A stretch of 35,937 bases of DNA from contig JAUYPF010000045.1 in assembly GCA_030697685.1 (NCBI GenBank), positions 1 through 35,937 on the forward strand, given 5' to 3'. The translations under genes and the position numbers were made by a program. The number at the start of each line of letters is the position of its first letter. Within the stretch, counting starts at the first letter, position 1. The DNA comes from a bacterium. GTDB lineage: Archaea; Nanobdellota; Nanobdellia; SCGC-AAA011-G17; GW2011-AR17. Shown piece by piece: positions 7,829 through 10,358 of the stretch. The notes under the pieces are model-generated. The model did not search any database. It saw nothing but the letters and a program-made list of their open reading frames with translations, and had not been told where the DNA came from.

Positions 7829-8653
7829 ATGGTAGAAACAATCGCAATTCATAGAAGTAAGCCTTTAACTGGTTCACTACATTATGTTCCGGATAAGAAT
7901 CAAGCATTAATCTGTGCTTTGGAGTCTGTATATAACGCTACTGAAGTCCCTTTTGGGAATAGTGGTTTAGGACGACAAAGAGCATTAGGAAATATTGATG
8001 TGTGGGACAATTGGTTTTATGGTTGCCCTCAAGTGCAGGGAAAAGTTGATGATAAAAGCATGTTTTTCTTTGATGATAGAGTGGTTGATGTAGACCATTT
8101 GGAAGATCATCCTTTGTTAAATCCTGTTTTTTTAAGAGACAATTGGTCTGAAATGAAAAATGGCTCTTTACCTGTTTCTCAAGAGTATTTTTCTGCTTTA
8201 GTAGAATTATCTCGTGTTGAAGGCTCTGGAGTTCGTGCACTTTCTCATGCAGATATGGGAAAAATAAATGACTTTTTTGGGCTATCTCAAGCAAAAAGTC
8301 ATGCATATATGAAAGCTTTCTTAGGTCTTTCAGAAGCAGAGAGAGGAGATTATCTTAAAGCACATGAAACCAAGCATGGAAAAAACATTGGGCTTTATTG
8401 TGCTCTACAAGATGCAGAACAAGAAAAAGCGATGGGGCGTTTGTCTGTGTTCGTTAACGGTTACAACCTGGATGGCAGCAGCATTCTAGGCAGCAATTAC
8501 GCGCGTCTGTTAGGGGTACGTCGTCGTGTGGCGAGCGCAGCGAGCTCCAGCGCCAAAGGCGCTCCGCACAAAACTTTAGAAGATGAACTAGTAGGTGCAT
8601 TTCCTGAAATAGATTCAGAAAGACTAAAAGGTATACTTTCTCGATATCAATAA
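7829..8653 (+). CDS. unknown protein with a candidate retroelement-diversified C-terminal region
   Basis: A 274-residue soluble protein that I do not recognise by fold. Residues 1-200 have ordinary AT-rich codons (for example the Trp-rich NIDVWDNWFYGCPQVQG). From A201 to about P253 the codons abruptly become GC-rich and A-poor (8431-8570 is 59% GC by count). Within it, 15 of the 17 codons for F208-Y224 end in C or T and encode residues reachable from AAC or AAT by changing only the adenines. An Arg/Val-rich conserved-looking block follows (LLGVRRRV), then a perfect GC hairpin at 8549-8563. The last 20 residues return to normal composition. This is the layout of a DGR target protein, possibly with a C-type-lectin fold. 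No reverse transcriptase or template repeat is in the window. The diphthine synthase gene starts one base after its stop. Confidence 0.6.
   Translation: MVETIAIHRSKPLTGSLHYVPDKNQALICALESVYNATEVPFGNSGLGRQRALGNIDVWDNWFYGCPQVQGKVDDKSMFFFDDRVVDVDHLEDHPLLNPVFLRDNWSEMKNGSLPVSQEYFSALVELSRVEGSGVRALSHADMGKINDFFGLSQAKSHAYMKAFLGLSEAERGDYLKAHETKHGKNIGLYCALQDAEQEKAMGRLSVFVNGYNLDGSSILGSNYARLLGVRRRVASAASSSAKGAPHKTLEDELVGAFPEIDSERLKGILSRYQ
8429..8548 (+). other. candidate DGR variable region (VR) and IMH-like block
   Basis: About 120 bp of foreign composition inside the host gene: A makes up 20 of 120 bases, against roughly a third around it. Codons 8450-8500 read as NNY except two leucine codons (CTG, CTA), the pattern left when AAY codons of a template repeat are randomised at adenines. 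8501-8548 is nearly free of A in first and second codon positions and would correspond to the constant initiation-of-mutagenic-homing part. No second copy of this block exists in the window, so the assignment rests on composition and layout only. Confidence 0.45.
8549..8563 (+). other. perfect GC hairpin just after the candidate VR
   Basis: AGCGCC-AAA-GGCGCT is a 6-bp perfect inverted repeat with a 3-nt loop lying inside the coding sequence directly behind the GC-rich block. DGR targets commonly have a GC-rich hairpin or cruciform a few bases downstream of the IMH sequence, needed for efficient retrohoming. Here it is translated (SAKGA) without disturbing the frame. Confidence 0.5.
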
Positions 8654-9431: not shown

Positions 9432-10358
9432 ATGCTTATCACAAAAAAACTCTTTGAAAGAATCCAAGAAAAGAAAAAGAAGTTAGAGAAGTTAAGGCCT
9501 TTAGATAAATTCTCCTTAGGAAAATTAAAAGAAGAATTTCTGATAGAATATATTTATAATTCTACATCAATAGAGGGAAATACGCTTTCTCTGAATGAAA
9601 CAAAACTTGTTTTAGAAGAAGGAATCACTATAGGAGGAAAAAGCTTAAGAGAGCACCTAGATGTAACAAATCAAAAAGAAGCATTTACCTGGATAGAAAA
9701 TTGGGTAAAAGAAAAGAAAAACATAAGAGAAGCAGATATTCTAACTTTACACCAAATAACACTCAAGGGTATTTCAGAATATTGGGCAGGAAAATATAAA
9801 ACTTCAGAAAATAGAATTATAGGCTCCAAATTAAAAACAACTGCACCGTATAAAGTCCAATCTGAAATGGGAAATTTAGTCTATAAACTAAATGTAAACC
9901 CTGAAAAATATAATCTTATAGAATTAGCAGCTTTTGCTCATCATGAAATTGCAAAGATTCATCCTTTTGTAGATGGAAATGGAAGAGTAGCAAGGCTTCT
10001 CTGTAATTTGATTTTTATGAAAAAAGGCTACCCTCCAATCATTATTCGAAATAAAGACAGAAAAAAATATTTTGCAAGCCTAGAAAAAGCGCATTTTGGT
10101 GATGTGAGTATTTTTATAAATTTTATTGCAAAAATGGAAGAAGAATCGCTCATACGGTATTTGAATGCTCTAACAAAAACAACTGCAAATAATGAATTAC
10201 TACCTTTAAGTCTTTTAGCAAAAGAAACACCCTACTCACAGGAATATCTCAGTCTTTTGGCACGAAGGTCTATACTCCCTGCAACAAAGATAAATGGTGT
10301 ATGGCATAGCTCTAAGGAAGAAATACAGAAATATCGGATAAAAGGAAAAAATGAATAA
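9432..10358 (+). CDS. Fic-domain AMPylase with N-terminal inhibitory helix and C-terminal HTH
   Basis: A 308-residue Fic protein. The complete active-site motif HPFVDGNGRVAR lies at 177-188, with catalytic H177. The inhibitory motif S-x3-E-G-N is at residues 44-50 (STSIEGN), placing it in the class with an N-terminal alpha-inhibitory helix (like SoFic). Residues about 255-305 look like a helix-turn-helix (SLLAKETPYSQEYLSLLARR) followed by a basic tail. Fic enzymes transfer AMP from ATP to a hydroxyl on a target protein, and the inhibitory glutamate restrains this. The dyads at both ends of the gene fit autoregulation through the HTH domain. The target cannot be predicted. Confidence 0.88.
   Translation: MLITKKLFERIQEKKKKLEKLRPLDKFSLGKLKEEFLIEYIYNSTSIEGNTLSLNETKLVLEEGITIGGKSLREHLDVTNQKEAFTWIENWVKEKKNIREADILTLHQITLKGISEYWAGKYKTSENRIIGSKLKTTAPYKVQSEMGNLVYKLNVNPEKYNLIELAAFAHHEIAKIHPFVDGNGRVARLLCNLIFMKKGYPPIIIRNKDRKKYFASLEKAHFGDVSIFINFIAKMEEESLIRYLNALTKTTANNELLPLSLLAKETPYSQEYLSLLARRSILPATKINGVWHSSKEEIQKYRIKGKNE

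Follow-up and report, generated by a model that had tools for sequence, protein, structure and literature searches.

A putative diversity-generating retroelement target gene in a Nanobdellia genome, probably rewritten from a remote template with an RT-16 leader

The target gene and its variable region

The window analyzed here is a stretch of 35,937 nucleotides, contig C47 of a MAG (G000; 1.07 Mb, 92% complete, 65 contigs). On its plus strand, an open reading frame starting from an internal ATG (7829–8653) encodes a 274 amino acid protein, VP1, which from its family profile is a putative AvpA-like variable protein of a diversity-generating retroelement (DGR). Base counts gave 16.7% A and 58% GC for 8429–8548, and the GC maximum of the window, which is 32.5% GC overall, is reached in the 120-nt stretches starting at 8447–8452 (60% GC). 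Fifteen of the 17 codons at 8450–8500 are NNY, the exceptions being CTG and CTA. Past the variable region (VR) lies a GC-rich element (8515–8548, plus strand, beginning GGTACGTCGTCGTGTGGCGAGCG) that is invariant among the VR genes and missing from the template repeat (TR), and each of the five VR genes in this genome carries its GGGTACGTCGTCG portion with 0–1 mismatches. Next within the coding sequence are a hairpin, AGCGCC-AAA-GGCGCT (8549–8563, plus strand), and a C-terminal extension (8564–8650, plus strand) that is divergent between aligned paralogues. These observations agree with an earlier note on this DNA, which had described a low-A, GC-high block of 120 bp, the same 15 of 17 NNY codons, a constant GC block after the VR and a perfect hairpin. 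The note had placed the whole feature at 8429–8563; the DGR block is real, and the part derived from a template is shorter, covering only the 81 nt at 8434–8514.

The genome was searched piece by piece using the window block as query. Close copies were found at C37:44687–44833 and C36:6355–6493 (87–88% identity), an adenine-rich copy, the TR, at C37:44330–44418 beside a reverse transcriptase (RT) gene, and weaker matches on C48 and C8. Given its recurrence on C36 and C37 and the adenine-rich copy beside the RT, the block is not a product of chance. The TR is 81 nt long, has 28 adenines and 53 other bases, and includes 13 Asn codons (AAY), reading GRLSVF-NNNNN-L-N-G-NNN-L-NNNN-ARLL in the frame of the target. 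In the alignment of TR and VRs, the variable region of the window (VR1; 8434–8514, plus strand) lies in frame within VP1, has 13 AAY-derived codons and differs from the TR at 13 positions, each of them a template adenine, with 0 of the 53 non-A positions changed. VR2 on C37 and VR3 on C36 have 14 and 13 mismatches to the TR, again all at template adenines and none at the 53 other positions, so that 40 of 40 mismatches in the three VRs fall at template A (P ~1e-7 or lower per VR). The earlier note had inferred that an RT and a template lie elsewhere in the genome, the template being a repeat that differs at its adenines and stands beside a DGR-type RT, and had named a genome lacking either as the outcome that would count against it; both were looked for, and both occur on C37 of the same genome.

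The end of the VR is also where template and targets differ in the manner of known DGRs. The TR ends in TTAGGAATA (IMH*) where VR1, VR2 and VR3 all read TTAGGGGTA, an IMH-type end lying at 8505–8520 (plus strand) in the window, and the TRs of relatives end in GGAATA. An IMH followed by a hairpin had been anticipated by the earlier note, and both this IMH/IMH* difference and the 8549–8563 hairpin were found. VR2 and VR3 are also followed by the hairpin, with a GAA loop, while the C8 gene has a hairpin of other sequence and the same form and that of C48 is degraded.

Substitutions at template adenines in this genome are only to G or T. A-to-C changes number 0 of 40 here, 20 of 579 in TR/VR pairs of the order and 20 of 457 in those of other orders, compared to 3 of 18 in BPP-1 and 2 of 17 in ANMV-1; this rarity could be due to RT bias or to selection. 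Thirteen AAY codons would allow a protein diversity of at most about 15^13, and G and T substitutions alone would allow 9^13 (about 2.5e12). Three adenine changes, at 8471, 8489 and 8490, are common to all three VRs, which could be due to selection or to partial descent from a common VR.

VP1 has no credible match in Pfam, NCBIfam or PHROGs, and no member of its family was found in viral contigs. A profile built from four sequences of the family had AvpA (5ioo) as its sole PDB match at E<=10 (E=1e-5), with an alignment spanning the VR, the YAR-x-x-GV motif and the SAEG segment encoded by the hairpin. An AlphaFold model built from three sequences was of low confidence (pLDDT 48.6) and too weak to count by itself, and its only credible fold match was again 5ioo (prob 1.00, E=2.7e-3). 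AvpA is a nanoarchaeal DGR protein of the C-type-lectin type with an internal VR, a hairpin inside its coding extension and an extension of 46 residues past the VR, comparable to 8564–8650 of VP1 (PMC5006420). Because of this likeness, and that to other DGR targets, VP1 appears to be a binding protein of the C-type-lectin kind with 13 variable residues; rewriting probably changes what it binds, and its ligands would be the surfaces of host cells or of other cells. Near VP1, after a TP_methylase (Dph5-like) gene, the window also has a gene of the Fic/DOC family (9432–10358, Pfam E=8e-21), and a similar Fic-like ORF was noticed by eye on C37 (L008:3257–4228).

The template cassette and its RT-16 leader

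C37 has the order target gene, leader, TR, RT, with about 30 nt between the end of the TR and the start codon of the RT. The RT (364 aa, C37:43208–44299) is the sole RVT_1 match in the genome. Its best PDB match is 8ub7 (E=7e-46), a chain that BPP-1 Brt matches over its full length; group II and related RTs match far less well. The C37 RT is 32% identical to BPP-1 Brt and 43% identical to the DGR RT of archaeal virus ANMV-1. Motifs of the LG...SQ type are a mark of DGR RTs; the C37 protein has LGNLTSQ along with YVDD, and LG...SQ makes up 75 of the 78 motif matches among the RT-16 loci described below. By sequence, the C37 enzyme is a DGR-type RT. Many DGRs, though not all, have the accessory protein Avd; no small ORF was found between target, TR and RT on C37, and the Avd profiles PF05635 and PF22296 matched nothing in the genome nor in any control genome. 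The genome contains an adenine-only TR/VR pair, an adjoining DGR-type RT, a VR inside a gene, an IMH/IMH* pair and a downstream hairpin, each of them a criterion by which DGRs are recognized.

The stretch between target and TR on C37, the leader (L008:11413–11566, minus strand), is conserved in relatives and matches the Rfam family RF03019 (RT-16 RNA) over its full length, 1–158, at 87.4 bits against a gathering threshold of 50. Rfam models a structured RNA over the whole stretch, gives it no function, and its model stops at the TR. RT-16 was found in 43 of 103 genomes of the order (66 loci, L102–L167), in 0 of 14 control genomes and in 63 of 236 genomes drawn from the phylum. Among the 66 loci of the order, the DGR RT begins 110–158 nt 3′ of the RNA in 51, an adenine-specific TR follows the RNA directly and has a VR nearby in 50, and 58 have either; template adenines differ at 645 of 1198 positions and other bases at 36 of 2690. 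The 40 further loci from outside the order (L181–L220) include 31 with the RT, 35 with the TR/VR pair and 0 with neither. Class-wide, 98 of 106 RT-16 loci adjoin a DGR RT, immediately precede an adenine-mutated TR, or do both. Since the TR/VR scan favours A-mismatches by design, its threshold and random control outweigh the raw counts: 85 of the 106 loci scored above threshold compared to 7 of 318 random anchors. At L108, L109, L128, L141, L151, L154 and L164, and likewise at L184, L185, L191, L192, L207 and L217, a leader, TR and target occur with no RT in the first 700–900 nt 3′, and it is possible that these cassettes are DGRs served in trans. RT-16 was absent from ANMV-1 and from viral contigs with related RTs. 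On one viral contig, an RT-18 RNA (RF03021; L177:2904–2978) lies directly upstream of a DGR-related RT, and other RT-n families may also be leaders of DGR templates.

The nucleotides that immediately follow the TR (TAGCCCAAG...) are complementary to the 5′ part of the leader (...CTTGGGCTA). In this genome the two would pair as GGCTGAGGCTA/TAGCCTCAGCT, with 11 pairs including a terminal G-T, and the minimum-energy fold of leader and TR recovers this helix unprompted, though the z-score of the overall fold is a modest -1.9. Across 64 loci, complementarity within the own locus averaged 20.4 against 15.2 +/- 0.35 with shuffled partners, a level reached in 0 of 20,000 shuffles (kinship uncorrected). 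In a fixed register of 12 pairs at 58 motif-anchored loci, 80.6% of pairs are standard, compared to 64.4 +/- 1.3% when shuffled and 26–45% when slid, and pairs covary between loci, as in GGGCTA/TAGCCC, AGACCA/TGGTCT and AAACCA/TGGTTT. The 35 usable hold-out loci gave 67.6% against 59.3 +/- 1.7% (0 of 5,000), which is weaker than the first set and likewise uncorrected for kinship. The helix lies outside the RF03019 model because that model ends at the TR.

We lean towards the view that, throughout the class, DGR template RNAs have RT-16 as their 5′ leader, its 5′ strand pairing with the sequence just 3′ of the TR and closing a template loop, so that cDNA would start beside the folded leader; such a structure may take the place of the 3′ spacer and Avd of BPP-1-type systems and serve targets in trans. 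A conserved AT-rich box, ATAAAATAC, in the leaders examined resembles the archaeal TATA element, and RT-16 could instead be mainly a promoter and not part of the template RNA. This we consider unlikely, as covariation ties what lies 5′ of the box to what lies 3′ of the TR, a pattern to be expected only of segments of a single RNA, and Rfam treats the whole RT-16 stretch as structured. We found no account linking RT-16 to DGRs in a literature search that covered work other than the founding description of RT-16. RT-16 was reportedly described by Weinberg in 2017. The link of RT-16 to DGRs, and the helix, is the part of this work that may be new.

Rewriting in trans and the other targets

VP1 has paralogues on C36, C37 and C55; counting the N-terminal fragments found at contig ends (C37, C55), the family has at least four genes. 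The target-gene pieces at both ends of C37 suggested a circular contig, an idea we rejected as there is no exact terminal overlap; contig breaks simply fall within near-identical target genes. A second target family is represented by C48:31356–32171 and fragments at C8:1–381 and C45:6–401. It shares the GGGTACGTCGTCG element, has relatives in two other genomes (G005 and G006), and its differences fall, by eye, in AAY-like codons. The assembly has no template for this family (C48, C8, partial C45); such a template either lies in the missing ~8% of the genome or has been lost. A tyrosine recombinase gene of the phage-integrase family stands directly before a DGR target gene at L168:469–1317 (C45) and at L172:3040–3948, and the targets that follow it belong to different families in the two genomes.

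Over the 300 bp upstream of the VR, pairs of the three target paralogues have 35–64 differences (12–21%), compared to 0 at the 53 non-A positions of the VR (Fisher p = 4.6e-3, 6.2e-5 and 2.0e-5). With the non-A positions identical despite this divergence, the window gene seems to be a target rewritten in trans and not a fossil. Identical non-A sites would follow if a single template had overwritten the VRs again and again; simple paralogy does not explain them. We put the probability that 8434–8514 is the VR of a DGR target gene rewritten in trans by the TR and RT of C37 at about 0.93, judging from sequence comparison. C37 and C47 are separate contigs whose linkage rests on binning, and the near-perfect match of VR and TR supports, at the sequence level, their belonging to one genome.

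It is improbable that VR1 is instead a fossil, diversified earlier beside an RT or copied along with VR2 and no longer rewritten. The window contig has neither RT nor TR, three adenine changes are common to all three VRs, and the template-less second family (C48, C8) shows that fossil VRs may exist in this genome. However, a fossil would drift at non-A sites, and 0 of 53 differ from the TR or among paralogues whose flanks differ by 12–21%. An ordinary GC-rich coding insert or dispersed repeat unrelated to DGRs, suggested by the GC content of the block and its presence in several genes, is ruled out for practical purposes by mismatches falling exclusively at adenines of a noncoding copy beside a DGR RT (P ~1e-7 per VR).

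To return to rewriting in trans, a target has probably occupied this chromosomal position since a time before the lineage split from that of archaeon nzgw39. In the related MAG contig JAHFJQ010000077.1 (isolate nzgw39), a gene of the target family precedes the same TP_methylase gene, the neighbour proteins being 86% identical to those of the window; the nearest named loci are those of this archaeon and of a groundwater Woesearchaeota MAG (JACRKH010000051.1). As to mechanism, the transcript of leader and TR would fold and bring the 3′ end of the TR, which is where cDNA starts in BPP-1 (PMC12875486), beside the leader. The RT would then copy the template RNA and make errors at adenines, for the most part A to G or A to T; the resulting cDNA would take the place of the matching stretch in three or more target genes, each at its own locus, with the GGGGTA IMH-type end and the downstream hairpin marking the recipients. 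From these sequence patterns we infer retrohoming and present-day activity in trans.

Comparison with known systems

Bacteria are already known to have DGRs with remote targets (PMC10907252), and nanoarchaea are suspected of having them (PMC4372165); surveys that demand a VR beside the RT miss such targets (PMC8144416). The homogenization of non-A sites used here needs no more than an assembly to address the question of fossil or remote target, and its answer is in favour of the latter. The association of RT-16 with DGRs proposes a role for an orphan RNA family, gives an easy way to look for DGRs, also for cassettes that lack an adjoining RT, in a large and uncultured class of archaea, and suggests a model, open to test, for the organization of cDNA synthesis without a 3′ spacer of the BPP-1 type.

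The DGR of Bordetella phage BPP-1 (NC_005357, 8ub7) resembles this one in its related RT, adenine-specific differences, IMH/IMH* and hairpin. In BPP-1, avd immediately precedes the TR, and TR and brt are separated by a gap of 146 nt whose RNA folds and recruits bRT-Avd (PMC12875486), whereas here the gap is much shorter, there is no adjoining avd and the leader lies 5′ of the TR. ANMV-1 (KP703175) has the order target, TR, RT and the more similar RT of the two, but its target is Mtd-like and it has no RT-16 match. Thiohalocapsa PB-PSB1 likewise has remote targets diversified by an RT and TR elsewhere in the genome; those are sensors of bacterial conflict systems with activity read from sequencing reads, while ours are known from an assembly alone, and DPANN RTs form a separate clade, 5F (PMC10907252).

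Also close are the DGRs of Nanoarchaeota DUSEL4 with AvpA (Paul 2015, PMC4372165; Handa 2016, PMC5006420, 5ioo), likewise archaeal and with an AvpA-like C-type-lectin target. Both have an internal VR with a motif of the R-x-x-G-V type at its end and a hairpin in a coding extension, and both include VR genes with no adjoining RT. Avd-like proteins were reported in DUSEL4 (PMC4372165), while none was found here in searches run without a positive control. Paul 2015 left open whether the RT-less VR genes of nanoarchaea are fossils or remote targets (PMC4372165). Unlike in DUSEL4, a single TR here fits three targets that lie at separate loci and are identical to it at every non-A position; this favours remote diversification.
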